A stretch of DNA of 64,000 nucleotides, taken from contig CAMJQA010000004.1 in NCBI GenBank assembly GCA_946407895.1, positions 1-64,000 of the forward strand. The letters are read 5' to 3'. Under the pieces are notes generated by a model. The model was given only the letters and a program-made list of their open reading frames with translations, was not told the origin of the DNA and ran no database searches. The number at the start of each line of letters is the position of its first letter. The first letter of the stretch is position 1. A program made the position numbers and the translations under genes. Positions 1-41,862 of the stretch are shown one piece after another. The DNA comes from an uncultured Prevotellaceae bacterium (GTDB taxonomy: Bacteria; Bacteroidota; Bacteroidia; Bacteroidales; Bacteroidaceae).

Positions 1-3000
1 ATGGTCTCGACGCCGTTAAGGGTGACGTTGCCAGCTTGCAGACTGCCGTTGCAGGCCTGATTGCTGCCGACAACGACATTCAGACAAAGATTGACAATCT
101 GTTTGGTGAGGCCAGCGCACGTATCGCTACCCTGACCGGCACTGTCGGCACCAACGAGGCTGCCATCAAGTCTCTGCAGGATGCTCTCACAGCTCTGCAG
201 AATGGCGACATCAAGTCTCTGCAGGATGCCGTTAAGGGTCTTGAGGGTCAGATTAAGGATGCCCAGGGCGCTGCCACCGAGGAGATTGGCAAGGCTACTG
301 CTGCTGTTAACCAGCTGAAGGGTCAGCTGGGCACCCTGCAGGGTGTTGTTGACGCTCTGACCGCCAGCGCTGTAAGCCAGACCGACATTGACAATGCCGT
401 TAACGCACTGGCTACTACCGTAGGTACCAACTATGACGACCTGAAGGGTCAGATTGAGGCTCTGAAGGGTGGTATTCCCACAGCTGCTGCTATTGCTGCT
501 GCTGCCGAGGCTGCTGCCAAGGCTGCTGCCAATGAAGCTGTTGCTGCAATGGTTAAGGAATATGACCTCAGCGGTATCAACGCTTCTATCGCCGAGCTGA
601 AGACTAACTACTCCAGCATTGACAATACCATCACAGAGAAGGTTGACGTTGCCAAGGAAGAACTCCGGAAGTATATGGAGGACTATGTAAAACAGTTGGT
701 AGGCACAGCCGGCGAAGGCGGCGAATCTGCTGCTGACGGTTCTCTGCAGGCTCAGATTGACGAGCTCGCTACTGTTCTCTATGAGTATCTGTTTGGTGCT
801 GAGGCTGAGGCAGGTGCTAAGCTGAAGGCTGGTGAGGAAGCTGCCGAGAAGGCCAGCGCTATCTCCAAGCTGAAGGATGCCATTGCCAAGGCTACTGGTG
901 CTACCACCAGCGAGACCACGCTGAGCAGCATCACGCTGATTCCCGACCTGTACATCAACGGTATCGAGGCTCTGCAGTTCAAGGCTCTGACCTATCAGCC
1001 ACGCGCATTCGATAAGGCTGTTGAGAACCAAGTTCCTAACTACAAGCGAAGCTTGGTTAATGCACAGGATAAGGACAAGAAGGATCTTCCCGAGAAGAAC
1101 GTTGACAACGGTGGAACCACCGCTTACTATCGCCTGAGCCCCATGACGGTGAAGGAGAATGACATCGTTAAGGATGGCATTAAGTTCTATAGCAAGACTG
1201 CCAAGACTGAGACTCGTGGTCTCGCTGAGGATGCTGGCCTGAAGGAGAATACTCCCATTAAGCCCGCAAGCGTTCAGATTGAGAACGGTATCCTGGCCGT
1301 GAAGATGCAGAAGACCGTTACCGGTAGCCTGAGATTCAAGGGCGAAGGTAATCCTGCTACGCTGGTATCTCTGATGGTTCCCCGTGCTGACGGCAGCGCT
1401 GACATCTACTCTGAGTTCTCTCTGATTGACGAGAACAACTTCAAGGTACACATTGCAGCTGAGAACCTCTACGAGAAGAAGGGCGGCGACGGTAAGGTAA
1501 TCACCGACTGGGCTACCTATCACGAGGATGCTGCTACCATCTATGGCCACTATGCTGGCTATCAGGCTGTTTATGGCACCAACGTTGACGATGCTACCTT
1601 CATTAAGAAGGAGATTGCCTACAACGAGACTTACGACCTGCTCAAGCTGGTTGCCGGTTGCGATGACAATACTCATGCCAGATATTCTGTTGCCGAGCTG
1701 AAGAGCTTCGGTCTGACCTTCGAGTTCAGCATTCCTACTGATGCTTATACCAAGAACGCTGCCAACGGCACCGACCAGCAACAGTTTGCTAAGATTGACG
1801 GCACTATCATCAGTTCTAAACTGCCTGATAATGCGCATAGCGAATCTGCTAACCGTGCTGCCATCGACAAGGCTCCTATCGTACGCGTTGTCCTGAAGAA
1901 TGGTGGTGATATCGTGGACGAGGCTTACTTCAAGATTAAGTGGGTTGCCGAGCCTATACCTGTACTGCCTCCTCTGGATCCTGTTACATTGGACGCTGTT
2001 ACAAAGTTTGGCGATTTGAAGTGCGACCCCGTAACTGTAGGTCTGACATGGAAGGACTTCATCAACAATGTTTACGGTGCAACATTCGAGAGAAATGGCG
2101 AGACCGTTAAGCCCGATCTGAGCTATGACGAGTTCAAGACCATCTATCCTGCTGGTGACATCACCACCAAGCTGGTTACTCCTGGTCTGACCACCGCTCT
2201 GGTTGTTAACACTACTGCTCCCGATGAGGACGCTCAGGTAGCTTCTTGGACCATCAATCCTGATGAGTTCGGTAGGATTCTGCCCGCTCGCTCAAAGACC
2301 GTTGAGGCTCAGATTATTTTCAAGTCTTCTAAGCCCACCCAGTATCCCGACCTGATTCTTCCTTGGAAGTACACTGTGAAATTGCCCGTGGCTCCCGTTG
2401 TTAACGGTTACAACACCAACTACTGGTTCGCTACAGGCGAGAAACTGTATGTCCTGCCCGTTCAGTACAACACTTTGGATGCAAGCGGTACAGTTTGGAA
2501 TACTGAAGTTAAGTATGACTACAACATTATGCAGGCCTTCATAACCAGCACTAAGACTGAGACTGGTACCTTTAAGGATTGGATACTGAAGAACGTGCCC
2601 AGCAACTGCGGAACATGGGATCTCCAGTTTGCTATTAATCAGAGTTATGGTCTTGAGTATCATCCTGCATATATGGCTTGGGACGCTGGTAAGAAAGCAT
2701 GGACTGGTTCTGAACCTCTGAAGGATGAGGGCGTTGCTTTTGCAACCTTTGGTGCATATCAGCTCCAGAGAGATCTTGGTGCTAATTTGGGTGATATACC
2801 TACTACTGGAATCCGTCTGAACTGGCTTAATGGTGGTCACACCTCTTGGCAGAACCGTGAGGATAATCCGTTCGCTGTCCTTAACGCCACTAAGGCTGAT
2901 AAGAATGTTGTCGCTCCTCTGTTGAATGACCTCTCAGATGATAACGAAGCTGACGGCTGGACACCTAAGAAGACTAATGCTGACAAGAAAGCCATTGACC

Positions 3001-3611: not shown

Positions 3612-3669
3612 GAATTTTGACAAGAAGATTTATTGAAAAGAGTAGTTCAATAGATTAAATTAAACTTGA

Positions 3670-3704
3670 GAGTGCTCTGAGACTGTTCAGGGCACTCTTT
3701 TTTT
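3670..3704 (+). terminator. Intrinsic terminator between copy A and its small lipoprotein
   Basis: An 11-bp stem, GAGTGCTCTGA against TCAGGGCACTC, with a 6-nt loop is followed by seven T. It lies only 18 nt before the ATG of the next co-oriented gene, so that gene depends on read-through or on a promoter inside this stretch. Confidence 0.85.
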
Positions 3705-3722
3705 AAAACAAACAAATCAGCA

Positions 3723-4247
3723 ATGAAGAAAGTATTATATGTTGTCCCAATCTTTTTACTCATCCTTGCGGCTGCTTGCTCTGGCGGGAAGAAGGAAGGT
3801 GTACAGATAGCTCATCCTCGTTTTGACGAGCACATGACGCGTACGGCGCAGGATTCTGCAGACGTACTGAATCTGACCAACCGGTTCCTCGACCTGCTGA
3901 AAGCCGAGCAGTATGACGATGCTTTGAATATGCTCTACACCTTCAACAGTGAAGACAGCATTATTCAACCCATCAGTGATGCGCGCCGTCAGGAAATGCT
4001 CAATACATTCGGCACCTTCCCCGTGCTGAACTACGAGATTGATACCGTACTGATGTATACAGATTATGATACTGAGGTACGCTATATCTACGAGTTCTTC
4101 AAAAAGCCCGAGGGCAGCACGATGCCTAATACGATGAATGGTACGGTCTGCCCTCACCGCCAAGACGGTAAGTGGTATTTGACGGTTCCAACCGAAAAGA
4201 GCGAGCGTGTTTTTGAGAAGAATAGGACACGAGATTCCAGATCATAG
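3723..4247 (+). CDS. Small lipoprotein, partner of copy A
   Basis: 174 residues. The N-terminus is Lys-rich, then hydrophobic, and ends in the lipobox LAAAC, so it is a signal-peptidase-II lipoprotein. The rest is soluble and includes a helical stretch (NLTNRFLDLLKAEQYDDALNM) that recalls domains holding a cystatin- or NTF2-like fold, and a C-terminal part with FFKKPEG and NGTVCPHRQDGKWYL. About half of the residues match the lipoprotein at 14868-15389, which lies in the same position behind the other coiled-coil gene. The pairing has therefore been kept through duplication, and the two proteins probably act together at the outer membrane (inference). I do not recognise a named family. Confidence 0.8.
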   Translation: MKKVLYVVPIFLLILAAACSGGKKEGVQIAHPRFDEHMTRTAQDSADVLNLTNRFLDLLKAEQYDDALNMLYTFNSEDSIIQPISDARRQEMLNTFGTFPVLNYEIDTVLMYTDYDTEVRYIYEFFKKPEGSTMPNTMNGTVCPHRQDGKWYLTVPTEKSERVFEKNRTRDSRS

Positions 4248-4304
4248 ATAATCGTTTTGGGGCGTTTTCGTTAAAACGTCTGTTTTTCGAGTTGTTGTTT
4301 GTGG
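4247..4304 (+). repeat. Inverted repeat arm A (3' UTR of small lipoprotein)
   Basis: About 58 bp, including AACGTCTGTTTTTCGAGTTG, reappear in reverse complement at 14785-14842 with only a few differences. Each arm lies between a lipoprotein stop and its terminator, so they mark the inner edge of the inverted duplication. Confidence 0.85.
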
Positions 4305-4342
4305 AGGGCGTGCTAAGTGCTGGCATGCCCTCTTTGTTTTTT
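4304..4342 (+). terminator. Terminator of small lipoprotein A
   Basis: GAGGGCGTGC pairs with GCATGCCCTC (one G-T wobble) around a 9-nt loop and is followed by TTTGTTTTTT. Confidence 0.85.
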
Positions 4343-4354
4343 CATTCGAGGCAA

Positions 4355-4560
4355 GCGGTTGAATTGTTCAAGTCAAACGCTTGAATTGCCAAATTTAAAC
4401 GCTTGAATTGCCCATAATCAAATGTTAGAATGTCGAAAGTCAATTCTTTCAACGACTCGAGTGAATCGATTGAATGACTCGAGTGAATCGATTGAATGAC
4501 TCGAGTGAATTGATTGAGTGACTCGAGTGAATTGATTGAGTGACTCGAGTGAATTTATGA
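4355..4560. repeat. 22-bp tandem array, about nine units
   Basis: The stretch can be cut into strict 22-bp units from 4355 on. The first five are degenerate around CGCTTGAATTGCC, and the last four are nearly identical around GACTCGAGTGAATCGATTGA. The late units each hold two small palindromes, ACTCGAGT and ATCGAT. The array sits between the convergent lipoprotein A and asnS genes and codes for nothing credible. Confidence 0.9.
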
Positions 4561-4587
4561 GACAATGCCCTAAGGCCGTTTATTCTC

Positions 4588-4619
4588 ATAAAAAACGCTC
4601 CCCTGGGCAGGGAGCGTTT
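4588..4619 (-). terminator. Terminator of asnS
   Basis: On the minus strand ten bases ending in GCTCCC pair with GGGAGC and flanks around a 7-nt loop, and a T run follows. A second small hairpin (CTCCCC/GGGGAG, 4628-4645) lies between it and the asnS stop. Confidence 0.8.
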
Positions 4620-4662
4620 ACTTCTTTCTCCCCGATTCAGGGGAGCTTGATTCTGTTTAATC

Positions 4663-6102
4663 TTAGAACTCGGCATTCTTTGGTGTTCTTGGGAAAGGAA
4701 TGACGTCGCGTATGTTCTGCATTCCCGTCACGAAGAGGATGAGCCGCTCGAATCCGAGTCCAAAACCTGCGTGGGGGCAGCTACCGTAGCGGCGTGTATC
4801 GAGGTACCACCACAGGTGCGTCATATCCATCTGGCGGCGGTTAATCTCGGTCATCAGCTTGTCATAGCTCTCCTCGCGCACGCTGCCACCGATTATCTCG
4901 CCTATTGAGGGGAACAGTACATCGGTGCCCTGCATTGTGGGGCCGGGTGCAACTGCTCCCTTGTATCCGATGGAGCCGCCGTCGGGGGTAGCAGCGTTCT
5001 GCTTCATATAGAACGATTTGAAGGAGCGCGGATAGTCGGTCATGATGACTGGCTTCTTGAAATGCTCCTCCACGAGGTAGCGCTCATGCTCGCTGGCCAG
5101 GTCGTCGCCCCATTCGCAGGGGAATTCGAACTTGTGTCCCTGAGCCTTGGCTTCCTGCAGTATGTGTATTCCCTCGGTGTATGGCAGGCGTACGAAGTCC
5201 TCCTTCAGCACGCCCTCCAGGCGCTCTATCAGGCCCTTATCGACCATTTTGTTGAGGAACTCCAGGTCGTCGCGGCAGTTGTCTAGTGCCCAGCGTACGC
5301 AGTACTTGATGAAGTCTTCCTCCAGGTCCATCAGCTCCTCCTGGTCCATGAAGGCTATTTCTGGCTCAATCATCCAGAACTCTGCCAGGTGGCGCGGCGT
5401 GTTGCTGTTCTCGGCACGGAAGGTGGGGCCAAAGGTGTATATGGCTCCGAGGGCTGTGGCACCGAGTTCGCCCTCGAGCTGACCGGAGACGGTGAGCGAC
5501 GTCTGCTCGCCAAAGAAGTCGTCGCTGTAGATGATCTTGCCCTGCTCGTCCTTCTTCAGGTCGTAGAGGTTCTTTGTAGTCACCTGGAACATATTGCCCG
5601 CTCCCTCGCAGTCGCTGGCGGTGATGAGGGGCGTGTGGAAGTAGAAGTATCCGTGCTGGTGGAAATAGCTGTGGATGGCCATTGCCATATTGTGGCGTAT
5701 GCGGAATACGGCGCCAAACGTGTTGGTGCGCGGGCGCAGGTGAGCCACGGTGCGCAGGTATTCCCAGCTGGCTCCCTTCTTCTGCAGGGGATAGGTGTTG
5801 TCGCAGTCGCCCAGCACCTCTATCTGCGTGGCCTGAATCTCGCTGGCCTGCCCTGCTGCGGGGCTCTCCACGAGCTTCCCGTCCACGCTGAGGCATGCTC
5901 CGGTGGTTACGCGCTTCAGTGTCTCCTCGGGGAAGTTTGCATCATCGCCCACTATTTGTATGTTCTTTATGGTGCTTCCGTCGTTGAGGGCGATAAAGAA
6001 GATGCCCTTGCTGCCGCGCTTGCTGCGCACCCAGCCTTTCACGTTAATTTCGGCGCCGAAGTCAGTACGCTTCAGCGCGTCTATTACCTTTGTACGTTTC
6101 AT
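4663..6102 (-). CDS. asnS: Asparaginyl-tRNA synthetase
   Basis: 479 residues, the usual length for bacterial AsnRS. It charges tRNA-Asn with asparagine in the cytoplasm. The N-terminal about 105 residues form the OB-fold anticodon-binding domain ([23 protein letters not shown]). The class II catalytic core follows, with motif 2 around [21 protein letters not shown] and motif 3 at [15 protein letters not shown], and the protein ends in [10 protein letters not shown]. It is the last gene of a likely purB-rluB-asnS transcription unit and is separated from rluB by 106 bp that hold a C-rich palindromic repeat. The ATG at 6102 gives the expected N-terminus. Confidence 0.97.
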
Positions 6103-6149
6103 GTTATCTTATTCTTTTTAGTTTCTGTTCTTAATGCTCGCGTTTCCGG

Positions 6150-6200
6150 CCCCCTCTCCCCCCCCCTTGTGCAAGGGGAGAGGCGGGTGTCGGAGTGGGT
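6150..6200. repeat. GC-rich imperfect palindromic repeat
   Basis: Between asnS and rluB lies CCCCCTCTCCC...CCTTGTGCAAGGGGAGAGG, an imperfect palindrome followed by GCGGGTGTCGGAGTGGG. Similar C-rich/G-rich stretches occur near 28377-28460 and, less clearly, in the coding linkers of topB and the response regulator. Confidence 0.55.
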
Positions 6201-6208
6201 TGAGCCTG

Positions 6209-7474
6209 CTACTCAAAGGCTCCGCGGCGGAGCATAGCCACCTCGGTCTCGGTGAGAAAGCGCCAGTCGCCCCGGCGCACGTTCTTCTTGGTCAGGCCGG
6301 CGAAATATACGCGGTCGAGCTTGATGACACGGTAGCCCAGGCTCTCGAAGATGCGTCGCACAATGCGGTTGCGGCCCGAGTGAATCTCAATGCCTACCTG
6401 CTTCTTGTCCGTCTCGCTGGCGTACTCAATGGCATCAGCCTTTATGTCGCCGTCCTCCAGCGATATGCCGTCGGCAATCAGTCGCATATCGGCTGCCGTA
6501 AGAGCCTTGTTCAGATATACATGGTATATCTTCTTCTTCAGATACTGCGGGTGTGTGAGTTTTGTGGCCAGGTCGCCGTCGTTGGTGAGCAGCAGCACAC
6601 CGGTGGTATTGCGGTCGAGCCTGCCTACGGGATATATGCGCTCGCGGCATGCATCCTTCACCAGGTCCATCACCGTCTTGCGGTTCTGGGGGTCTTCGCT
6701 GGTGGTTACGTAGTCCTTGGGTTTGTTCAGCAGCACATATACCTTCTTTTCGATGCTTACCGGCTGGTCGTGGAAGACCACCTTGTCTGAGCGCTTCACC
6801 TTCGTGCCCAGCTCAGTCACCACTACGCCGTTCACGCTCACCAGCCCGGCGGATATAAACGTGTCAGCCTCGCGACGGCTGCATACGCCGGCGTTAGCCA
6901 GGAAACGGTTCAGGCGGATGGGCGCCTCGGGGTCGAACTGCACCGATTTGTACTCAATCTGCTTCTTCATGCTGTACTTGGCATGCGGATTGTAGTCGGC
7001 CGTGCGTGGTTTGCGCTGTGCGCCGCCCTTCTTGTATCCGCCCTGCTGACGGGGCTGATAGCCGCCCTCGCGCTTCTGGTAGGCACCCTGCTGGCGCGGA
7101 CGATATCCGCCTTCCTTAGGCTGATATCCGCCTTCGTGGGGCTTGTAACCTTCGCGTGGCTGATAGCCTTCACGGGGTTTGTAGGCCTCGCGCGGCTGAT
7201 ATCCCTCCCTGGGCTTATATCCTTCACGGGGCTGATAGGCGCCTTCGCGGGGCTGGTATCCCTCGCGTGGCTGATAGCTCCGGGTAACGGGACGGCTCAG
7301 TTTGCCGTCAGAACTGGCGCTGAATGCCGAGCGGTTAATACGTGGACGCAGGGGGCGTCCGCTGGCGCTGAAGCGGCCAGCACTTTCACTTCTTTGGGGG
7401 TGAGAACCATCCCGGTTTGTACCCTCATTGCCTTCGGAGAACTTCTCCCTCCAGCTTTCGTCTTCAATGCTCAT
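6209..7474 (-). CDS. rluB: 23S rRNA pseudouridine synthase, RluB/RsuA family, with repeat-rich N-terminus
   Basis: 421 residues. The C-terminal about 240 residues are a standard RluB/RsuA enzyme: an S4 RNA-binding domain (IRLNRFLANAGVCSRREAD) followed by the pseudouridine synthase domain with the catalytic Asp in GRLDRNTTGVLLLTNDGD. It isomerises a uridine in 23S rRNA. The N-terminal about 180 residues are low-complexity and basic, with about a dozen copies of a YQPREG/YKPREG-type unit followed by YQPRQQGG-type units. This looks like a disordered RNA-binding tail and is common in Bacteroidota homologs, although its length varies. The gene lies 26 bp downstream of purB and upstream of asnS on the same strand. 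Which of the rluB-, rluE- or rluF-type sites it modifies cannot be told from sequence alone. Confidence 0.9.
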   Translation of the reverse strand: MSIEDESWREKFSEGNEGTNRDGSHPQRSESAGRFSASGRPLRPRINRSAFSASSDGKLSRPVTRSYQPREGYQPREGAYQPREGYKPREGYQPREAYKPREGYQPREGYKPHEGGYQPKEGGYRPRQQGAYQKREGGYQPRQQGGYKKGGAQRKPRTADYNPHAKYSMKKQIEYKSVQFDPEAPIRLNRFLANAGVCSRREADTFISAGLVSVNGVVVTELGTKVKRSDKVVFHDQPVSIEKKVYVLLNKPKDYVTTSEDPQNRKTVMDLVKDACRERIYPVGRLDRNTTGVLLLTNDGDLATKLTHPQYLKKKIYHVYLNKALTAADMRLIADGISLEDGDIKADAIEYASETDKKQVGIEIHSGRNRIVRRIFESLGYRVIKLDRVYFAGLTKKNVRRGDWRFLTETEVAMLRRGAFE

Positions 7475-7500
7475 AGAAATTGTTTTTAGATAGTGAATTC

Positions 7501-8847
7501 TTAAATGCCTGTATATGTATGAGGAGTTATGGCGCGCAGCTCATCCTTCACAGACTCGCTCACCTCCAGTTCCTCGATGAAGTCTTTTATTGTCTGCCTG
7601 TCTATGCCTTTCCCTGTCCGCGTCAGGGCCTTCAGGGCCTCGTAGGGGTGGGGGTAGGCTTCGCGCCTTAGTATGGTCTGTATGGCCTCGGCCACCACAG
7701 CCCAGCAGTTGTCCAGGTCGCGGTTGATGGCATCCTGGTTCAGCACCAGCTTGCGCAACCCTTTCAGGGTGCTCTGCAGGCTGATGACCATGTGCCCCAT
7801 GGGCACGCCCACGTTTCTGAGCACGGTACTGTCCGTCAGGTCGCGCTGCAAGCGGCTCACGGGCAGTTTCTGGCTCAGGTGCTCCAGCAGGGCATTGGCT
7901 ACGCCCAGGTTGCCCTCGGAGTTCTCAAAGTCAATGGGGTTCACCTTGTGTGGCATAGCGCTGCTGCCCACCTCTCCGGCCTTTATCTTCTGACGGAAAT
8001 ATTCCATCGATACGTATTGCCAGAAGTCGCGGTCCAGGTCGATGATGATGGTGTTGATGCGCTTCATCGTGTCGAAGAGGGCACCCAGGAAGTCGTAGTT
8101 GCTTATCTGTGTGGTGTATTCCTCGCGCTCCAGGCCCAGCTTCTCGGCCACGAAGCGGTTGCCAAACTGTCGCCAGTCATACGTGGGGTAGGCCACGTGG
8201 TGTGCATTGTAGTTGCCCGTTGCCCCGCCAAACTTGGCTGTTATGGGGCATGCCTTCAGCATGGCCAGCTGGCGCTTCAGGCGATATACGAATACCATGA
8301 CCTCCTTGCCCAGGCGGGTAGGGCTGGCGGGCTGTCCGTGCGTCTTGGCCAGCATAGGCACCTCGGCCCACTCTGCGGCATAAGCCTCCAGCTGGCTGAT
8401 GAGTTCCTCAATCTGGGGGTAGTAAACCTCGTTCAGCGCCTCGCGGATGCTCAGGGGCACGCTGGTATTGTTGATGTCCTGCGAGGTCAGGCCAAAGTGG
8501 ATGAATTCCTTGTATGCCTCCAGTCCGCCAATAGCATCGAACTGCTCCTTGATGTAGTATTCCACGGCCTTTACGTCGTGGTTCGTCACTTGCTCTATGT
8601 CCTTCACGCGCTGGGCATCGGCTTCCGTAAAGTTGCCGTATATGGCCCGCAGGCGGGGGAACAGGCTGGCCGGAAAGTCGGTCAGCTGTGGCAGGGGCAG
8701 TTCGCACAGGGCAATGAAGTACTCCACCTCCACCCTTACGCGATAGCGTATGAGTGCATATTCCGAGAAGAATGCAGCCAACGCTTCCGTCTTACTGCGA
8801 TAGCGGCCGTCAACTGGCGATATAGCTGTCAGTAAATCCAATTTCAT
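7501..8847 (-). CDS. purB: Adenylosuccinate lyase
   Basis: 448 residues, full length. It cleaves SAICAR to AICAR and adenylosuccinate to AMP plus fumarate in purine synthesis. The fumarase/aspartase-superfamily signature SSAMPHKVNPIDFENSEGN is present, as are THGQPASPTRLGKE and the TSQDINNT segment that carries active-site residues. It is the first gene of the purB-rluB-asnS cluster. A -7 motif (TACCTTTG on -) lies at 8952-8959, which leaves an untranslated leader of about 100 nt in which I do not recognise a known riboswitch. Confidence 0.97.
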   Translation of the reverse strand: MKLDLLTAISPVDGRYRSKTEALAAFFSEYALIRYRVRVEVEYFIALCELPLPQLTDFPASLFPRLRAIYGNFTEADAQRVKDIEQVTNHDVKAVEYYIKEQFDAIGGLEAYKEFIHFGLTSQDINNTSVPLSIREALNEVYYPQIEELISQLEAYAAEWAEVPMLAKTHGQPASPTRLGKEVMVFVYRLKRQLAMLKACPITAKFGGATGNYNAHHVAYPTYDWRQFGNRFVAEKLGLEREEYTTQISNYDFLGALFDTMKRINTIIIDLDRDFWQYVSMEYFRQKIKAGEVGSSAMPHKVNPIDFENSEGNLGVANALLEHLSQKLPVSRLQRDLTDSTVLRNVGVPMGHMVISLQSTLKGLRKLVLNQDAINRDLDNCWAVVAEAIQTILRREAYPHPYEALKALTRTGKGIDRQTIKDFIEELEVSESVKDELRAITPHTYTGI

Positions 8848-8951
8848 AATAAAAGTTGCGAACTTAAGTATTTTACTCTTTTTCCTATTTCGTTTAGACT
8901 CTTTCGCGGGGTTATCCTTGCTTTAAATCCCCCTTTGTTCGATTCAGGCCA

Positions 8952-8959
8952 CAAAGGTA
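8952..8959 (-). promoter_or_regulatory. Probable purB promoter, -7 element
   Basis: The minus strand reads TACCTTTG, a perfect TAnnTTTG Bacteroidota -7 box. No clear TTTG -33 box is seen at the usual spacing. Confidence 0.6.
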
Positions 8960-9026
8960 CAACATTTTTCTATAATAGGAAGGGAAGAAAGAGTTTTTTT
9001 TGTGAATTTGCTCAAAAAGTGAATTT

Positions 9027-11108: not shown

Positions 11109-11242
11109 AGTATAATAACGCAGGCTCACCGTTTTTATTGCGTTAAGTCCTTTTTTTATTCGGGTAAGAATCCTTTTTGGGCATCAAAACGTCTTCAGAA
11201 TGTTAAATAGTAGTATTTTTTATGCAGTTTTCATTAAAATAA

Positions 11243-11273
11243 TTGCTCGTCCGTAGTATTTTTACTACTTTTG
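11243..11273 (+). promoter_or_regulatory. hicAB promoter
   Basis: TTG at 11243-11245 and TACTTTTG (TAnnTTTG) at 11266-11273 with a 20-bp spacer match the Bacteroidota housekeeping promoter. Transcription would start near 11280, about 37 nt before hicA. Confidence 0.75.
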
Positions 11274-11316
11274 CATCCGAGAAGCTGAGATATATAGGGA
11301 ATATGGATTTGGCAAT

Positions 11317-11514
11317 ATGAACAATATCAAAGTATCCAGAATTTTGGAGGCGCTCAATAAGGACGGCTGGGTCTTGACGGCGCAGAAGGGAAGTCATCGC
11401 CAGTTCAAGCACCCGGTTAAGCCCGGTAAGGTAACGGTAAATGGCCATCCAAGTGATGTTGTTTGTGGATTCCTGTTGAAATCTATTGAGTCTCAGTCGG
11501 GGTTAAAGTTCTGA
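11317..11514 (+). CDS. hicA: HicA-type mRNA interferase toxin
   Basis: 65 residues, typical for HicA/YcfA. It folds as a small double-stranded-RNA-binding-like domain that cleaves mRNA and blocks translation when free of its antitoxin. The catalytic His is in QKGSHRQFKHP, and VTVNGHPSDVVCGFLLKSI is the usual C-terminal half. It has its own promoter, and its stop overlaps the next start (TGATG), so toxin and antitoxin are translationally coupled. Confidence 0.92.
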   Translation: MNNIKVSRILEALNKDGWVLTAQKGSHRQFKHPVKPGKVTVNGHPSDVVCGFLLKSIESQSGLKF

Positions 11515-11981
11515 TGGAACCTATATTTAATCCTCAAAGACGAACTTATTTGTTGAACCTAAATTGTAGTCATATGGAAAGAATTATTATGAACACAGGC
11601 CTAACCGAAACAGGATACAGTTGCTCCTGTGACCTCCTGCCCGGATGGATAGTATCTGGTTCTAATGATTTTGAGCAATTCAAAAAAGAGGTAAAGGACA
11701 GCATAGATTTCTATATTGAATGTGCAAAGGCTGACGGAGATGAATATCCCTCCGTCTTCGACTCAGACTATGAAGTCGTTTACAAGTTTGATGTCCGTTC
11801 GCTCCTTGAATATTATCGGGGTATTTTTTCCTTCTCGGCATTGCAGACTATTACGGGAATAAACCAGAAGCAACTGGCTCATTATGCCTCTGGAGTCTCT
11901 AAACCCAGGCCCCAACAGGTACGCAAGATAGCTGATGGCTTGCACTCTTTGGCCTGTGAGCTGCTGACCGTTACTGTTTAG
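11514..11981 (+). CDS. hicB: HicB-type antitoxin
   Basis: 155 residues if read from the ATG that overlaps the hicA stop. The first about 20 residues (MEPIFNPQRR...) lie before the usual HicB start; an internal Met at MERIIMN would give about 135 residues, nearer the family norm. The partly degraded RNase-H-like HicB fold (ETGYSCSCDLLPGWIVSGSN, FKKEVKDSIDFYIECAK) is followed by a C-terminal helix-turn-helix (SALQTITGINQKQLAHYASGVSKPRPQQVRKI) that should bind the hicAB promoter. It ends 12 bp from the convergent topB stop, with no terminator between them. Confidence 0.9.
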   Translation: MEPIFNPQRRTYLLNLNCSHMERIIMNTGLTETGYSCSCDLLPGWIVSGSNDFEQFKKEVKDSIDFYIECAKADGDEYPSVFDSDYEVVYKFDVRSLLEYYRGIFSFSALQTITGINQKQLAHYASGVSKPRPQQVRKIADGLHSLACELLTVTV

Positions 11982-11993
11982 GCTGCATATCCC

Positions 11994-13862
11994 TTACTTC
12001 TTCCCCACTTCTACCGTTACGCGGCGGGGCGCATTGTCTCGGAGCACCGTCATTACGATGTCTGAGACCATCTGCTTCAGTTCGCCCAGGAAGGTGGCGG
12101 GCTCGTACTCGTGGCGCTCTATCTGGCGCAGCTTCTTCTCCCAGATGCCCGTCAGCTCGGCGCTCTTGAGCAGCTCCTCGCGGATGAGCCCTATGAGCTC
12201 CACGCCCGTGGGAGTGGCCCAGAGGGACTTACGCTCCTTGCGTATGTAGTGGCGCTTGAACAGCGTCTCGATGATGGCAGCCCGGGTGCTGGGGCGTCCT
12301 ATGCCGTTCTCCTTCAGCGCATCGCGCAGCTCATCGTCCTCCACCGTCTTTCCGGCCGTCTCCATAGCACGCAGCAGGGTGGCCTCGGTATAGGGTTTGG
12401 GCGGAGTGGTCTGCTTCTCGGCCAGGTCGGGGGTGTGGGGGCCCGACTCGCCCTTGGTGAAGGAGGGCAGCAGGGGGGCATTCTCGCCTTGTCCGCCCTT
12501 TGCCGGCGATGCCGTACCGCCTTCCGCAGCCGGGGCATCGGGCTCATCGCTGTCGGCAGCATTCGCCGCCGCCATCACTACGCGCCATCCTGGGTCGGTT
12601 ATCTCCTTGCCCGTAGCGCGGAACTGCACCTCGGCCACCTGGCCAAGCACGGTTGTCGTGGTGAACAGGCAGTCGGGGTGGAATACGGCAATGAAGCGGC
12701 GGGCCACCAGGTCATATACCTTCATCTCCATATCCGAAAGCCCCTGTGCCACTACGCCCGTAGGGATAATGGCGTGGTGGTCGGTGACCTTAGAGTTGTC
12801 GAACACCTTCTTCGTCTTGGGCAGCGGCTTTCCCTTGATGCGGTCCATCAGGTGGAAGTAGGCCCTCAGCCCGTTCATGATCTGCGGACACTTGGGGTAG
12901 ATGTCGTCGCTCAGGAAGGTGGTGTCAACACGCGGATAGGTGGTGAACTTCTTCTCGTATAGGCTCTGTATGAGCTGCAGGGTGGTGTCGGCGCTGAAGC
13001 CGTACTTCTTGTTGCACTCCACCTGCAGGCTCGTCAGGTCGAACAGCCTGGGCGGCCCCTCGGCCCCCTTCTTCTTCTGCACAGCCGTAACGGTGAAGGG
13101 CAGTTCGCGTATCGAGGCCAGTGCCCGCTCGCCTTCCTCGCGGGTGCGGTATCCGCGGTCGCCCTCCTCCATAACGGCCGAGAAGGTGACGTCGCGATAG
13201 ACCGTAGTCAGCACCCAGTAGGGCACGGGCACGAAGTGCTCAATCTCCTGCTGCCGGCGCACGATGAGGGCCAGCGTAGGCGTCTGCACCCGCCCTATGC
13301 TGAGCACCTGCCGGTTGGCCCCGTACTTCAGCGTGTACAGGCGCGTGGCATTCATGCCCAGCGTCCAGTCGCCAATGGCGCGCATCAGCCCCGCCTCGTA
13401 CAGGCTCTGATACTCGCTCTGGTCCTTCAGGTGCTGGAAGCCCTCGCGTATGGCATCCTCCGTCAGGCTGCTTATCCACAACCGCTTCACGGGGCAGGTG
13501 GCCCGCGCCTTCTGCATCACCCATCGCTGAATGAGCTCGCCCTCCTGCCCGGCATCGCCACAGTTTATAATACCCTGGGCGTTCTGCATCAGCTGCTCAA
13601 TGATGCGGAACTGCTTCTCCACACCCTTGTCAGCCTTCAGCTTTATGCCGTATCGGGCCGGAATCATGGGCAGCTGCCCCAGGCTCCACGTCTTCCAGAG
13701 CGGCGTATATTCGTGAGGCTCCTTCAGCTCACACAGGTGGCCGAAGGTCCACGTCACCTGGTATCCGCCCCCCTCCATATATCCGTCCTTCTGCTGCGTG
13801 GCGCCCAGCACATGCGCAATGTCCCTGGCCACCGACGGTTTCTCTGCTATGCAAACAATCAT
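11994..13862 (-). CDS. topB: DNA topoisomerase III (type IA)
   Basis: 622 residues. A TOPRIM domain at the N-terminus (MIVCIAEKPSVARDIAHVLG, metal-binding acidic residues in CGDAGQEGELI) and the active-site Tyr in FTTYPRVDTTFLS identify a type IA topoisomerase that relaxes negative supercoils and decatenates DNA. GRPSTRAAIIETLFKRHYI is the conserved C-terminal core. There are no zinc fingers. An insertion rich in Pro, Ala and Gly at roughly residues 435-490 (ASPAKGGQGENAPLLPSF) breaks the core and resembles the GC-rich repeat seen between genes. The promoter at 13892-13921 lies in a sequence shared with the response-regulator promoter at 49714-49744. Confidence 0.95.
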   Translation of the reverse strand: MIVCIAEKPSVARDIAHVLGATQQKDGYMEGGGYQVTWTFGHLCELKEPHEYTPLWKTWSLGQLPMIPARYGIKLKADKGVEKQFRIIEQLMQNAQGIINCGDAGQEGELIQRWVMQKARATCPVKRLWISSLTEDAIREGFQHLKDQSEYQSLYEAGLMRAIGDWTLGMNATRLYTLKYGANRQVLSIGRVQTPTLALIVRRQQEIEHFVPVPYWVLTTVYRDVTFSAVMEEGDRGYRTREEGERALASIRELPFTVTAVQKKKGAEGPPRLFDLTSLQVECNKKYGFSADTTLQLIQSLYEKKFTTYPRVDTTFLSDDIYPKCPQIMNGLRAYFHLMDRIKGKPLPKTKKVFDNSKVTDHHAIIPTGVVAQGLSDMEMKVYDLVARRFIAVFHPDCLFTTTTVLGQVAEVQFRATGKEITDPGWRVVMAAANAADSDEPDAPAAEGGTASPAKGGQGENAPLLPSFTKGESGPHTPDLAEKQTTPPKPYTEATLLRAMETAGKTVEDDELRDALKENGIGRPSTRAAIIETLFKRHYIRKERKSLWATPTGVELIGLIREELLKSAELTGIWEKKLRQIERHEYEPATFLGELKQMVSDIVMTVLRDNAPRRVTVEVGKK

Positions 13863-13891
13863 ATACCGAAGTCCAAAACTGTTTCGTGCTG

Positions 13892-13921: not shown

Positions 13922-13992
13922 AATAAATCGGTAATTTTTTTTATTTCCGAGGTGAAGCCTACTTTCGACCGCAGGTCAATGGTACGTTTTAT

Positions 13993-14073
13993 CGTTTGAG
14001 TTAACTCGATCGATGATTTGAGTTAACTCGATCGATGATTTGAGTTAACTCGATCGATGATTTGAGTTAACTC
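13993..14073. repeat. 22-bp tandem array, 3.7 units
   Basis: Unit GATTTGAGTTAACTCGATCG plus AT, repeated at 13993, 14015, 14037 and 14059 (partial). Each unit contains the 10-bp palindrome GAGTTAACTC and overlapping CGATCG/ATCGAT palindromes. Confidence 0.9.
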
Positions 14074-14216
14074 AAGGTTTTTGGGATGACCATTACTTTT
14101 TTGAACACGAATTTCACTAATTTTCACAAATATTCTCTGTTGGGCAAGGTCTCAAGCGAATAGTCGCAAGCGACTGACAAATCGCACGAATGTGGGTCAT
14201 GTGGCATATTCGAAAG
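14074..14216. other. Intergenic stretch without a recognised gene
   Basis: Part of a 1-kb gene-free interval (13863-14867) between topB and the small lipoprotein B. Short inverted sequences such as GTCGCAAGCGAC are present, but no credible reading frame. Confidence 0.5.
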
Positions 14217-14286
14217 TTGACTACCGTCTTCTTCTGTCACGACTCGGCATAGTTCAAACGAGTTTGGCTCTGCGCTCGCTGCTCCA
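14217..14286 (+). repeat. Dispersed hairpin element, copy 1
   Basis: Reads TTGACTACCGTCTTCTTCTG, TCACGACTCG, an imperfect hairpin (GCATAGTTCAAAC against GTTTGGCTCTGC), then GCTCGCTGCTCC. The flanks match four other copies in this window. Confidence 0.85.
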
Positions 14287-14357
14287 TCAGTTAGTTGCAT
14301 CTTCAGATGCATTCATATTGCACGTGCTTAACAAAACTGATTCGTCAGATTCGTTAG

Positions 14358-14427
14358 TTGACTATTGTCTTCTTCTGTCACGACTCGGGAGAGTCGAAGC
14401 AAGCTTCACTCTCCGCTCGCTGCTCCA
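14358..14427 (+). repeat. Dispersed hairpin element, copy 2
   Basis: Same flanks as copy 1 but a different hairpin: GGAGAGTCGAAGC pairs with GCTTCACTCTCC around AA. Both arms have changed together relative to copy 1. Confidence 0.85.
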
Positions 14428-14550
14428 TCAGTTCGTGTTCCTTAATTTACTCCCGAAAGTTGAATTTCTAATACTCGCATTGAACAAGCCTACCCATACC
14501 CTATCCAAGCAGTACACAGTGTCTTCCCAAGGTAATGGCATCCCCTTTTG

Positions 14551-14605
14551 CTTGGCTACACCTTGGCTACACCTTGGCTACACCTTGGGTACACCTTGGG
14601 TAGAG
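14551..14605. repeat. 11-bp tandem array, five units
   Basis: Five perfectly phased 11-bp units: CTTGGCTACAC three times, then CTTGGGTACAC and CTTGGGTAGAG. Period equals one turn of DNA and half that of the 22-bp arrays nearby. Confidence 0.85.
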
Positions 14606-14753
14606 TATGTGAAATCCATGGCAAAGGTATAAGAATTCCATGAAATGGGAAAAGAAAGGGTGATCTTTTATTACTGACAAGTACCTCCTAATTTCCAGTA
14701 TTGCCAACTGGCACGTGCCAACAGGGTGACGCATCGCCGAAGTCGGGAAATAT

Positions 14754-14785
14754 AAAAAAGGAGGGAAAGCCGAAGCTAACCCTCC
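14754..14785 (-). terminator. Terminator of small lipoprotein B
   Basis: On -, GGAGGG...AGC-TTCG-GCT...CCCTCC forms a stem with a TTCG tetraloop and is followed by six T. Confidence 0.85.
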
Positions 14786-14842
14786 ACAAACAACAACTCG
14801 AAAAACAGACGTTTTAACGGAAACGCCCAAAAACGATTATTT
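14785..14842 (-). repeat. Inverted repeat arm B (3' UTR of small lipoprotein B)
   Basis: Reverse complement of 4247-4304 with a handful of mismatches, in the same position relative to the lipoprotein stop. Confidence 0.85.
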
Positions 14843-14867
14843 TATATGAAGCGCGAATTAATTTTCT

Positions 14868-15389
14868 TCAATTAACGTTTGATATATTCTCATTTTTGGC
14901 AAAAGGTATAGTCAAATACCATTCACCATTAACGCGAAGTGGACAAACGGAACCTGAAATAGTGTTAGGAAGAGGACTGTCTGCTGGTTTCTCAAAGAAC
15001 TGGTAACTGTAGCGTACTTCGGTATCTGTTTCTGAATACATTAACAAGGTGTCAATCTTAAAGTCCAGCACAGGAAAGCTCTCATAGCTTGACATAAGCA
15101 TCTTGCAATGCCCTTTATCTATGGGCTGCACTGTACAGTCCTCTTCGTTATATGCGTATAGCATTTTCAAGGCTTCATCATATTGTCCGCCTTTAAGCAA
15201 ATCCAAATATTGAATCGTTAGGTTTCTTATTGTTGTAGAATCCTTACTCGTTCTTGACATTTCAGTCACATATCGAGGATCAGAGGAAGTATTCTCGATT
15301 CCCGAAATTTCCGACTGATTCTTCTTGCCAAGGCATGATGCCAAAATAAGAAGGCTAATCGAGTACAGGACAAATTGAATTTTGCGCAT
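14868..15389 (-). CDS. Small lipoprotein, partner of copy B
   Basis: 173 residues from the ATG at 15389; the frame extends two codons further only through a TTG. The signal peptide ends in the lipobox LILASC. The body aligns over its length with the lipoprotein at 3723-4247 at roughly half identity: YLDLLKGGQYDEALKMLYAYN, FPVLDFKIDTLLMYSETDTEVRYSYQFF and NTISGSVCPLRVNGEWYLT. It follows the coiled-coil gene on the same strand, separated by a hairpin. Function unknown; probably an outer-membrane partner of the coiled-coil protein. Confidence 0.82.
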   Translation of the reverse strand: MRKIQFVLYSISLLILASCLGKKNQSEISGIENTSSDPRYVTEMSRTSKDSTTIRNLTIQYLDLLKGGQYDEALKMLYAYNEEDCTVQPIDKGHCKMLMSSYESFPVLDFKIDTLLMYSETDTEVRYSYQFFEKPADSPLPNTISGSVCPLRVNGEWYLTIPFAKNENISNVN

Positions 15390-15417
15390 TACCAAAATAG
15401 TGTAGATTTAATTTATA

Positions 15418-15450
15418 AGAGGGTGCTCTAATGGACTTAGAGCACCCTCT
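15418..15450 (-). terminator. Hairpin between copy B and its lipoprotein
   Basis: A perfect 14-bp stem, AGAGGGTGCTCTAA against TTAGAGCACCCTCT, with a 5-nt loop. The T tract after it on - is poor, so it may act as a leaky terminator or a processing/stability site. It corresponds in position to the hairpin at 3670-3704. Confidence 0.65.
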
Positions 15451-15493
15451 TCATATCCACTATACTTTAATTACTTATAAAGGAAGTATAGTT

Positions 15494-18400
15494 CTAGAAG
15501 CTTCTTTTCTTTACTGAGTAGCCACGAGGATGAATTACAATCTTCACATAGCGAGTAATGGTACCCAATTCATATGTAACCTTTACAGGTATAAATGCAT
15601 TGTAGTCGAAACCTACATTCTGACCTCCCAGATTCTTGAAGATAAGTTCATTCGTGCCTGGATCATAGGTGACAGAAGGCTCAACACCACCTGAGGTAGT
15701 ACCAGATACGGCTGCTGATGTCATACCCTTGTTTTGTACATTATCAACAGACACCGTTTCGTCTGCAACCAGGTCATTATTAGCTACTTTCAAACCATAC
15801 TTAACATTGTTCGTATCCCACTGAATATTCGTAATGCCATAATACGTATAAAGTTCTGCTGCCCACTGCTTACTTGACTCACGTGTGCCAACCTTCTTTG
15901 CTGCATCAATCTCAGCCTGAGTAAAGGCTGTCTCACGTACGACATAACCAGCGAAGTCGGTCATAGTCAAGCCCTCGGCGCAAGAAATCTTAGAACCACC
16001 AGCAATACCATCAACAAAGTAGTCGGTGAAGTTGGCATCAACACGAATAGGCTCTACAAATGCCAGATAGAAGGGAGAGTTACCTACCTCGTAATAGTTC
16101 CAAGGATTCAGTTCACCCCAGATGTTCATCTTAATCTGCTTCGTATGACTATACTGTGGAGTTACACCATCTTTTTCCATTTCGTCTTTCAACGGATTCA
16201 GAATGGGATAAACCTTAGTGTTATCAGCCTTCAAAGAGGCAGTTGCAGCACCAGCATTTTCAACCCAGCTGTCGGCGGGATGAGAACCACCCCAATCAAT
16301 GTTCAGTACCTGTTGACCAGCCTGATTGTAGAAGACATATGCTTTCTCTGTGGTCTGCTGGGTTGTAGCACCATTTGCTATACTCCAAGTGTAAGGACCA
16401 TTGTTCTTATCAAAGTTACTGGTCATGTTATCACCAGCCCAAGTATAAGGACGAAGAGGCTGATAGTTCAAATCTGGATTATCATAGTGATATTGAACAT
16501 CATACTTGCTCAGAGGCTCGCCAAGACTGTTCAGGACATTCTGGTTGGGCTTTGTTGCGAACTGGAAGTCCCATGCGGGGCAAGCACCCATCATATTGCG
16601 CACTACCCATTCGTTACCAGTGGTAGGACGTGTGAAGCCTGACAACAGGTTGAAGTCATACTTAACCTTTGCACCAGCTGTAGAGGTGTTATACTGAACA
16701 GGAAGAACCCACAAGATATTGGGATCATCTTTGCACCAGTTGATGGTATTCTTACCGACAGTAGAGGTATTTGCAGGCAACGTATACTTCACTGTCCAGT
16801 AGAACCACAAATCGGGGAATGCAGAGGAATCTCCTGATTTGAAGTTAACCTTAATCTTGAAGGTTCGACCGTCATTGGGCAATGTGCCGATTTCATCAAT
16901 TCCAAGCTTCCAGCGAATAAGGATAGCATCACCTTCTGCGTTGGTTGTATTCTCGAAAATGGGAGCGAGACCATCATCGGCACCAGCAAGATTCTTACCA
17001 TCTGCACTGCCATATTCAGCCTTTACGTCGCGTACATACTTCTCATCGCTGAGAACATCCCATGTCATGTTAGCAATAGGATAGTTCTGCTCAAAGCGTG
17101 ACTGACTCATACCTACGATATTACCATTCTCATCCTTAATTTTACCATAGACATTGTTGATAACTTCTTTCCAAGTCATCGAAACTGTCTGGCTGGTGCA
17201 AGAAAGTTTCATATCAAGATTTTCCTTGTCATCAAGATGAATGTCAGCAAGTTTCTTGTTTATCCACTTAATCTTGAAGTAGCGCTGGTCAACCAACTTG
17301 TTGTTTACTGTATCCTCAAGAGTTACACATACGATAGGCTCTTTACCAACTACAGCCTCATTATCATGGCCATAGGCAGGATCATCAGGAAGAACAGGAT
17401 AGATTATATGGTTGGAAGCACCCCTAAGCTTTGCAAATTGCTGCTGATCCGTTCTGTGAGTTACATCGTTGTAAGCATCTTTAGGAATGGAAAAACGGAA
17501 AGCTAAACCGAACTGCTTCAACTCGTCCTTAGTAATCTGGATATGATTACCACCGGTTGAATAGTCACCAGTCACCAATGTGAACAGATTCAGTTGATTT
17601 TCTTCTTTTTCTTTATAGTAAACCTCCTTTGTTACACGATCATTGGCATCAATGAGAGATGCATAAATGTCTGTATAGTCCGAATAGTGAGGTTGCCAAT
17701 CGTATGTTGCATGAGCTGTGTAGGGAAGAGCCGCAATATAGGGCGTAAACTCAGTCTCCACAATGCGAGAATACTCAGAATAAACGTCGGTATAATCCTC
17801 AGCTTCTGCATAATTAGGATTCTTGGGCACCTTCAACGCGATTGTGCGGATTTGATCTGCATTCAAACCATTAGCCAACCTGGTTGTTGCGTCGTTCTTT
17901 TTCAGGTAAACGGTCATAATCTTAGTGCCATCCTTACCAACGCCAACTTCAGCCTTATTAACAGATACCAGAGAGTTTGCCTCAGGGCCAACAGCTGCAC
18001 GTGTATTAGCCACATTTGATACAACACTAACTTGATCAATCAGATAGCTGTTGTCATCAACGCTGTTAGGACTCAGACGATACAGAGCTGTTGTGTTCTT
18101 GTTGTCTACTCTTCTTTGAGCTTCACCAGGAATATTTTCAATGTTGATGTTCGCATTGTTTTCCTGACGCTGTCCGATACGGCCATTTACCATGTAAACT
18201 CGACGTGGGTTATAGATCAAAGTCTTAAACTCAATAGCCTCAATACCGCCAATGTACAGACGGGGAATCAAAGTTACGCTGCTGAGAACCTTATTCTGAA
18301 CAGATACATTATTCATCTTATTCATTTGTTCTTTCAGTTTCTCAGCCAAAGTAGCAGCTTTGCTGTTACCTTCATCAGCGGCGGCGAACAGCTTAACTTC

Positions 18401-20152
18401 TGCCTCTTTATCGTTCAAATCGATACCGAAATACTGAGCCAGAATCTCAGCGAGAACGTCTATATCACTCTGCAATGCCTCGTCACCCTCTTTGATAGTG
18501 CCTTCCAGTTCAGACAAAATAGCAGGCTTCAGCTCATTAATCTTAGCTGTAACCTCACTGGCAATCTTGTCATCAATCTTACCATACTCTTCCTGAAGCG
18601 TGCTAATAGCAGTGTTGATACCAGAAAGATCCTGATTGAATTCACCATTCTCAATCTTGGTGAGCAGTTCGCCTACAGCCTTGTTAACAGCCTCGTCAGC
18701 AGCTGCTTTGGCAGCAGCAGCAATAGCAGCAGCTGTGGGAATACCACCCTTCAGGGCATCAATCTGACCCTTCAGGTCGGCATAGTTGGCACCTACGGTA
18801 GTAGCCAGTGCGTTAACGGCATTGTCAATATCGGTCTGGCTTACAGCGTTGGCGGTCAGAGCGTCAACAACACCCTGCAGAGTAGCCAGCTGGCCCTTCA
18901 GCTCGTTAACAGCAGCAGTAGCCTTGCCAATCTCCTCGGTGGCAGCGCCCTGGGCAGAAGCAATCTGACCCTCAAGACCCTTAACGGCATCCTGCAGAGA
19001 CTTGATGTCACCATTCTGCAGAGCAGTGAGAGCATCCTGCAGAGACTTGATGGCAGCATTGTTGTCAGCCTGGCCGTTGGTCAGGGTAGCAATGCGTGCG
19101 CTTGCCTCACCAAACAGGTTGTCAATCTTTGTCTGAATGTCGTTGTCGGCAGCAATCAGACCTGCAACGGCAGTCTGCAAGCTGGCAACGTCACCCTTAA
19201 CGGCGTCGAGACCATTCTGCAGAACCTCAATCTGCTTCTGATTGTTGGAAATCAGACCCTTCAGAGCCTCAACCTGGTCGTTCACCTTGTTGCCCAGAGC
19301 ATCGATGGCATCCTGAGCCTTCTGGTTGGCGGCCTTCATGTCGGCCAGCTGAGTAGCCTGGCCCTCAATCTTAGCCTTGTTCTCGGCAGCCTGAGCGGCA
19401 GCTGAAGTCACCTGCTGGCCAAATACGTTGATCTGGCTGTTCAGGGTCTCCTGAGCATTCTTCAGGTTTTCAGCGATGGTTGCCAGATTCGTAGCGTTCT
19501 GGGCAGCCTGCAGCTTAGCCTCATCGGCAGTGCCCTGAGCCTTCTCGGCAGCAGCCTGGGCGGCCTTGGCAGCATCCAGAGCCTGGCTGGCCAGGGTGTA
19601 AGCCTCGTTGGCGCGTGCAGTAGCGGTGGTGATACCCTGCTGCAGCTCCTTGTCAGCCTGAAGCAGACCGGTAATGGTCTTGCCCTGCTCGGCGAGAGTT
19701 GCATTGGCGGCATCGATTGAGCCCTTCAATGCATTCTGGGCGTCGGTCACCAGGGTGGTGGCAGCTGCAACGGCAGCGCGCTGAGCCTCGGCAGCCTTCA
19801 CGTCTGCATAGCTGTTGGCAGCCTTCTCGGCAGCCTCAGCCTTGGAGGCAGCCTCGCCGGCAGCAGCGTTCTTGGCATCTGCTACAGCGTTGTTGATGGA
19901 AGTCTGCAGGGCAGCATCGGCATTCTTGTAAGCTGTTTCCAGGCTTGACAGCTGTGCCTGCAGATTGTTGGCCTCAATCTCCAGATTGTGAACCTTGTCA
20001 GCAACCAGAGAATTAAGGTCGGTCGATTGGTTTCTAATCTCGTTGCGCAGCTCGGCGATGTCATCGTCGTAGTCCTTACAAGAGTTCAAACCGCCTATGG
20101 CAGTCACTACCAGTGCTGCCAACAGGATTGAGCGAAATTGATTCTTTCTCAT
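15494..20152 (-). CDS. Coiled-coil surface lipoprotein, copy B (complete)
   Basis: 1552 residues from MRKNQF; the frame extends eight codons upstream, but only this start puts the signal peptide in place. The signal ends in GGLNSC and is followed by KDYDDDI, which fits a lipoprotein with the acidic export signal that directs Bacteroidota lipoproteins to the cell surface. Residues about 25-560 are an almost unbroken Ala/Gln/Asn-rich coiled coil with no Pro for long stretches and internal repeats (SLQDALTALQNGD, KGGIPTAAAIAAAA). From about 600 the protein is beta-rich with aromatic residues and ends at HPRGYSVKKRSF. It resembles the Bacteroidota proteins annotated with a 'PL29 lyase N-terminal' CKDYDDDI region, but I see no catalytic motif. 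The stalk matches copy A closely at the DNA level, while the head is diverged. Likely a surface stalk with a binding head (inference). Confidence 0.88.
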   Translation of the reverse strand: MRKNQFRSILLAALVVTAIGGLNSCKDYDDDIAELRNEIRNQSTDLNSLVADKVHNLEIEANNLQAQLSSLETAYKNADAALQTSINNAVADAKNAAAGEAASKAEAAEKAANSYADVKAAEAQRAAVAAATTLVTDAQNALKGSIDAANATLAEQGKTITGLLQADKELQQGITTATARANEAYTLASQALDAAKAAQAAAEKAQGTADEAKLQAAQNATNLATIAENLKNAQETLNSQINVFGQQVTSAAAQAAENKAKIEGQATQLADMKAANQKAQDAIDALGNKVNDQVEALKGLISNNQKQIEVLQNGLDAVKGDVASLQTAVAGLIAADNDIQTKIDNLFGEASARIATLTNGQADNNAAIKSLQDALTALQNGDIKSLQDAVKGLEGQIASAQGAATEEIGKATAAVNELKGQLATLQGVVDALTANAVSQTDIDNAVNALATTVGANYADLKGQIDALKGGIPTAAAIAAAAKAAADEAVNKAVGELLTKIENGEFNQDLSGINTAISTLQEEYGKIDDKIASEVTAKINELKPAILSELEGTIKEGDEALQSDIDVLAEILAQYFGIDLNDKEAEVKLFAAADEGNSKAATLAEKLKEQMNKMNNVSVQNKVLSSVTLIPRLYIGGIEAIEFKTLIYNPRRVYMVNGRIGQRQENNANINIENIPGEAQRRVDNKNTTALYRLSPNSVDDNSYLIDQVSVVSNVANTRAAVGPEANSLVSVNKAEVGVGKDGTKIMTVYLKKNDATTRLANGLNADQIRTIALKVPKNPNYAEAEDYTDVYSEYSRIVETEFTPYIAALPYTAHATYDWQPHYSDYTDIYASLIDANDRVTKEVYYKEKEENQLNLFTLVTGDYSTGGNHIQITKDELKQFGLAFRFSIPKDAYNDVTHRTDQQQFAKLRGASNHIIYPVLPDDPAYGHDNEAVVGKEPIVCVTLEDTVNNKLVDQRYFKIKWINKKLADIHLDDKENLDMKLSCTSQTVSMTWKEVINNVYGKIKDENGNIVGMSQSRFEQNYPIANMTWDVLSDEKYVRDVKAEYGSADGKNLAGADDGLAPIFENTTNAEGDAILIRWKLGIDEIGTLPNDGRTFKIKVNFKSGDSSAFPDLWFYWTVKYTLPANTSTVGKNTINWCKDDPNILWVLPVQYNTSTAGAKVKYDFNLLSGFTRPTTGNEWVVRNMMGACPAWDFQFATKPNQNVLNSLGEPLSKYDVQYHYDNPDLNYQPLRPYTWAGDNMTSNFDKNNGPYTWSIANGATTQQTTEKAYVFYNQAGQQVLNIDWGGSHPADSWVENAGAATASLKADNTKVYPILNPLKDEMEKDGVTPQYSHTKQIKMNIWGELNPWNYYEVGNSPFYLAFVEPIRVDANFTDYFVDGIAGGSKISCAEGLTMTDFAGYVVRETAFTQAEIDAAKKVGTRESSKQWAAELYTYYGITNIQWDTNNVKYGLKVANNDLVADETVSVDNVQNKGMTSAAVSGTTSGGVEPSVTYDPGTNELIFKNLGGQNVGFDYNAFIPVKVTYELGTITRYVKIVIHPRGYSVKKRSF

Positions 20153-40755: not shown

Positions 40756-40804
40756 CAGCAATCCGGAAGAAATAGCAATAAAAACATATAAGGCCAATTT
40801 AGAG

Positions 40805-41820: not shown

Positions 41821-41862
41821 CAACCAGTTTCATTAATTTACAATCTAAAAGTCACAAGTAAC

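Follow-up and report, generated by a model that had tools for sequence, protein, structure and literature searches.

The window, a 64,000-nucleotide stretch (G000:C4:1-64000) of an 80,227-base contig, contains an inverted pair of operons, A and B, each made up of a gene for a stalk-head surface lipoprotein and a gene for a small lipoprotein. Our best reading, which is tentative, is that the pair is a dispersed relative of a promoter switch found in congeners, in which A is on, B is silent and the stalks are exchanged by homologous recombination. The genome (G000) is a draft assembly of 121 contigs and is 91.6% complete.

Both modules have the same order of parts in mirror image: the stalk-head gene is followed by a hairpin, the lipoprotein gene and a structured 61-bp element. 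In module A, on the plus strand, gene A (3..3611, with head A from about 900) precedes a hairpin with a T run (3669..3706, identified by eye), the open reading frame of lipoprotein A (3723..4247), which is predicted to have an NTF2-like fold, and the 3' element (4248..4308), which is predicted to fold and is followed by a terminator-like stem. Module B runs on the minus strand and consists of the complete gene B (15494..20152; matching the 1552-residue protein P0027), a hairpin also found by eye (15416..15450), lipoprotein B (14868..15389) and the second foldable copy of the element (14780..14840). The original prediction began module A at base 1; the module is indeed there, but the draft contig itself begins at base 1, so that the 5' part of gene A is absent. 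The missing part is supplied by P0001 (1515 residues), which matches head A at 100% and, at full length, carries SCKDYDDDI near its N terminus.

Two repeats join the modules. The shared stalk of gene A (1..525, plus strand, cut at the contig end) matches that of gene B (18688..19215, minus strand; 19215-18688 as reverse complement) at 92.5% identity in an alignment of 531 columns with an E value given as 0.0, and the 3' elements (4248-4308 against 14840-14780) match at 96.7% over 61 columns. A second comparison of the window returned the same arms, with 1-137 at 96%, 152-541 at 92% and 4248-4308 at 97%. Both matches and the mirrored gene order bear out the inverted pair and the near-identical stalk DNA that had been predicted, and the spans given for it, ~11 kb from element to element and ~19 kb from stalk to stalk, are correct. 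The arms stand as well, but the true repeat is longer than was claimed, since the 3' half of the leader is also 96% alike between A and B. The heads and lipoproteins have diverged, as had been noted, and their synonymous sites are saturated. The complete protein alignment of A with B, stalk included, gives 40% identity and the head alone gives 36%; the lipoproteins are 45% identical. Head A yields a mostly β structure model (pLDDT 87.7), and no curated family scored above its cut-off here for these surface lipoproteins.

Between the modules (4663..13862) are open reading frames that we take to be asnS, rluB, purB, a PorE-like gene, hicAB and topB; these names, like those of ACT, paaK and cmk below, come from the earlier finding or were presumptively recognized from sequence. 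Congeners hold parts of this block, asnS included. Short tandem arrays flank the carried genes (13995-14073 and 4448-4561), and the latter type recurs on contig C78 at 262-320. A sequence of ~70-90 nt, possibly a small interspersed repeat, occurs at 14205-14292, 14346-14433, 58235-58310 and 49749-49817 with 80-86% identity, and a tandem repeat with a period of ~42 nt and copies 90-95% alike lies at 27987-28304.

The two operons differ in their upstream regions. The leader of gene B (20153..20390, minus strand) resembles the leader of an A-type gene in which contig C78 ends, beside cmk; the A and B leaders are 83% identical over 220 columns, with a 3' half at 96% and a 5' half at 77%. Upstream of A, next to the leader palindrome CCACCTCTGTGCGAGAGTG, is a match to the Bacteroidota promoter motif TTTG-N19..21-TACATTTG, which chance would give at 0.1-2% per 420 nt; the available text of one study gives TAnnTTTG as the Bacteroides -7 consensus (PMC4747536). 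Gene B has no TTTG/TAnnTTTG promoter match within 420 nt upstream of its start codon, and a terminator-like hairpin with a 16-pair stem and a T-rich tail (20485..20520, minus strand) lies ahead of it, in the interval to the ACT-domain gene. From this asymmetry and the terminator, A is predicted to be on and B silent, and the same asymmetry would make a swap of heads matter. The step to a silent B is weakened by a count among single congener genes, because of nine scanned for the promoter, six had the full motif, two had the -7 part only and one had neither. The absence of the motif therefore does not prove that B is silent.

A possible model for such an arrangement is found in three congeners (G019, G044 and G154), where a gene for a 297-residue tyrosine recombinase separates two back-to-back stalk-head genes, with PF13102 and PF00589 above cut-off in all three. 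A lipoprotein partner accompanies each gene of the pair in G019 and G044 and one of the two in G154, where the other gave no match at E 0.01. In every pair leader homology starts at a palindrome (CCATCTCTCCCGAAGAGGTGG or CCATCTCTGCCGGAGAGATGG), and each locus has two exact 21-nt palindromes in opposite orientation within repeats of 305-346 columns. The motif TTTG-N19-TACATTTG, a predicted promoter, stands just upstream of exactly one gene per pair, and no promoter motif was found upstream of the other (3/3). Recombinase and promoter share a ~2.2-kb segment between identical leader palindromes (recombinase-promoter segments between the paired genes, L070:7256-10059, L071:8349-11282 and L080:1719-4489). 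Each locus thus has three features of an inverton: the inverted repeats, the one-sided promoter motif and the site-specific recombinase gene.

In one comparison, G019 against G154, the orientations are opposite. The flanks are collinear (G019 5039-25571 and 39733-52191 against G154 39483-19189 and 12790-365, minus orientation); most of their length is 66-86% identical, and a single stretch of 6.3 kb reaches 96%. The central 2.8 kb is 95-98% identical and in plus orientation, opposite to both flanks. The promoter-recombinase segment thus appears to be inverted between these genomes, although a misassembly across the ~320-nt repeat may be responsible. The recombinase itself is a 100% match between the two, despite flanks of mostly 66-86%. 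When G044 is compared with G016, the promoter region is likewise joined to different genes. The inversion between G019 and G154 is the closest to the window flip that was found, but it involves a different segment, the 2.8-kb promoter-recombinase unit, and not the ~20-kb block. In another congener, G091 (L073:3976-10484), a stalk-head gene and its lipoprotein are followed by a 356-residue recombinase 37% identical to the switch recombinase.

The window pair departs from this arrangement in several ways. Its promoter motif lies outside the ~20-kb segment, on the cmk side, and no recombinase was found near A or B, though one could act from a distance. Its end repeats match in part: the palindromes have a common core and differing arms, and the long homology lies in the stalk.

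Codon divergence argues for recombination in that stalk. The shared stalks of A and B have a dS of 0.126 (167 codons), whereas the same stalk gives 0.42 between A and its orthologue in the genome RUI210, which we take to be G100 and not a further genome, and 0.44 between B and that orthologue. The two stalks of G000 are thus more alike than either is to RUI210 A, to which each is 82% identical in protein. Beyond the shared tract, dS between A and B rises to 2.83 in the distal stalk and 1.86 in the head, and the lipoproteins are saturated; head A is 90% identical to that of RUI210 (293 columns), against 36% to head B. Since the A-B value is well below that of the orthologues, and selection at the protein level alone would not push paralogues under orthologues, the stalks of A and B recombined after the split from RUI210.

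Possible traces of such exchange are also seen in individual stalks. The 35 columns that distinguish A from B served to score ten A-type stalks; P0005 and P0012, with stalks partial or missing, were left out. In P0004, P0007 and P0011, long B-type stretches are enclosed by A-type ones (p < 5e-5, 3e-4 and 5e-5 in runs tests), P0002 is borderline (0.04) and the remaining six show no clustering (0.60-0.96), in tests that are not independent because the ten stalks are related sequences. The tracts sit in the stalk and their donor may be other than gene B; as each has two switch points, gene conversion, a double crossover or exchange between strains would explain them without inversion. The predicted exchange between the stalks is therefore upheld as far as recombination since the RUI210 split goes (dS, and three of ten stalks mosaic), and not as an inversion of the segment.

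The most serious alternative, in our view only somewhat less probable than the best reading, is that A and B are ordinary paralogues at fixed positions whose stalks were equalized once, with no switching and with an incidental inverted geometry. Either gene conversion or a recent duplication that placed the proximal stalk and leader on an older head could have brought this about. Several observations favor it. Stalks and heads seem to reassort in any case: P0089 and P0090, whose stalks are related (identities of 71% and 56% across the stalk query), have a different head, 36-38% identical to head A and absent among the B-head matches, and P0037, with a head resembling that of B (59%), did not come up in the stalk search, both searches having scored only the candidates with most shared words. 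Gene A has matches in 4 of 139 genus genomes, with strong ones only in G000 and G100. The promoter count fits as well, since three of nine single genes likewise lack the full motif. What speaks against fixed paralogues is the single motif per pair and the palindrome at a similar leader position to that in the pairs with a recombinase, which hint at a common regulatory design.

The neighborhoods of A and B in other genomes are also relevant to this alternative and to a stronger claim, that the segment between the stalks inverts. Head A is beside cmk on one contig in RUI210 and, by contig ends, in G000, whose assembly joins gene B to its own flank without a break. The G100 contig that carries asnS runs on from that gene to an end with 19 nt of the 61-bp element plus a terminator stem like that of A. 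The surroundings of A, with cmk on one side and asnS on the other, therefore appear common to G000 and G100, since head A is near cmk in both and the asnS contig end has the remnant of the element. The RUI210 draft yielded no gene B, and its ACT/paaK flank occurs without it; both this and the constant cmk-head A linkage are as expected of fixed paralogues. Direct repeats of ~140 nt, seen by eye, lie beside the ACT gene in G100 (L044:386-811), at the site of gene B in G000.

No inversion across the stalks was seen in the two readable genomes (G000 and RUI210). The original prediction, that a crossover in the stalks inverts the segment, is so far unsupported, and the search of related assemblies for both orientations, proposed as its check, returned one, with head A at cmk in both. 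A different rearrangement was considered and rejected as support. In G100 (L043:1-9911 against window 4665-13865) the porE-hicAB-topB part (window 9099-13865) is inverted relative to purB-rluB-asnS, but its breakpoints are away from the stalks and elements; one end of the L043 contig coincides with a breakpoint and the other lies in the 61-bp element. We consider it unlikely that recombination between the stalk genes turns over the whole ~20-kb block (asnS, rluB, purB, PorE-like, hicAB and topB) at once, placing heads A and B alternately at the cmk promoter, as a switch derived from the recombinase-driven one intact in sister species. If it did, the flip would be a head-swapping surface switch working by plain homologous recombination, with housekeeping genes carried along.

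The leader palindromes raise the question of a site-specific event instead. The palindrome of the B leader (CGCTCTCTGTGCGAGAGTGGG; 20363..20383, minus strand) is positioned like those of the congeners. It shares with the A palindrome an identical 15-nt core, CTCTGTGCGAGAGTG, within the leader half that is only 77% alike, and this core occurs once in each leader in the G000 sequence examined (the window, C78, pieces of C10, C22 and C32, and the rest of C4). The central spacer is the same within each pair and differs between G000, G044 and G019/G154. These features are consistent with a distant, trans-acting tyrosine recombinase that still recombines the palindromes and inverts the ~20-kb segment, much as PMC4747536 reports for Tsr19 of Bacteroides fragilis and a promoter far from its gene. 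We nevertheless regard such a recombinase as quite improbable. The outer arms of the palindromes differ between A and B, and the G000 matches to the switch recombinase, on C32 and C22, are only 36-43% identical, with no stalk-head gene seen in the stretches fetched around them. The palindrome also precedes single genes without an adjacent recombinase (G130 and G060, with a variant in G016), so it may simply be a hairpin at the 5' end of the mRNA.

Leader homology between A and B starts within 8 nt of the palindrome, and the homogenized tract, formed by the 3' leader half and the proximal stalk, stops short of it; recent exchange was therefore by homology and not at the palindrome, an end point that also suits fixed paralogues. 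Through the promoter and palindrome, the A leader is 91% identical to that of RUI210.

An assembly artefact, in which a collapsed or mis-joined repeat produced the contig break and the mirror arrangement, is very improbable: contig C4 starts within the stalk and C78 ends in the leader, in an assembly of 121 contigs, yet a single copy cannot have given rise to heads, lipoproteins and flanks that have diverged, P0001 and P0027 are two distinct proteins, each of full length, and the same A locus is present in RUI210.

We therefore return to the dispersed promoter switch as our preferred reading. In this model, A and B are two operons of one family, each encoding a stalk-head surface lipoprotein and a small NTF2-like lipoprotein. 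In several congeners one promoter would serve two such genes, and a flip of the segment would activate one of them and silence its partner. The window pair would be a dispersed descendant or cousin of that switch, made up of two convergent operons whose leaders lie outermost, ~20 kb apart, with degenerate palindromes and no adjacent recombinase. A would have kept the promoter and B, with no promoter match, would be silent, while homologous recombination, presumably continuing today, would keep the shared stalks alike. Conversion tracts could vary the A stalk, and exchange between strains is another possible source of the mosaic stalks. With a crossover, the ~20-kb block would be inverted and head B would come to lie behind the A promoter; such a conjectured inversion would swap A and B. 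Weighing against the model are the lack of a recombinase near the pair, the differing palindrome arms, the palindromes at single genes, the six of ten stalks without clustering, the 5' leader half, which is not homogenized (77% between A and B, 94% between A and RUI210), head A at cmk in both readable genomes, and the failure to find B in the RUI210 draft.

The model would tie a group of Bacteroidota surface lipoproteins, with a coiled-coil-type stalk, a multi-domain β head and an NTF2-like partner, to on/off switching. The recombinase, site and promoter of the congeners are testable, and set beside the window pair they would let a switch driven by a recombinase be compared, in nature, with a pair that has none next to it and is joined only by homology. 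No title or abstract opening among the open-licence papers listed by literature searches on terms other than the family name mentions the stalk-head family; this is weak evidence of absence.

Tsr19 is reportedly the subject of studies by Roche-Hakansson (2007) and Nakayama-Imaohji (2016). Promoter inversion by recombinases is known in Bacteroidales for surface components, as the available parts of four papers describe (PMC12632263, PMC4747536, PMC11892184, PMC5903667). As far as the accessible text on Tsr19-type promoters goes (PMC4747536), these combine a TAnnTTTG promoter, inverted repeats, a tyrosine recombinase, surface lipoproteins and outer-membrane proteins, and the pairs in G019, G044 and G154 fit that description. 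The window pair differs in having degenerate palindromes, a promoter outside the 20-kb segment and no recombinase beside it, and its homology continues through the long stalk. Like site-specific shuffling systems, a switch in the window would exchange the gene joined to a promoter, but the process supported here is homologous recombination in the stalk. The vmp expression site of Borrelia hermsii, as described in the available part of PMC6011951, is similar in having a promoter-bearing copy, a promoterless copy with upstream homology, and a surface protein as product. Where that system has about 60 silent copies, the window would have a single one, lying in inverted orientation next to the expressed copy on the same contig, and the tracts observed are in the stalk and not in the head.
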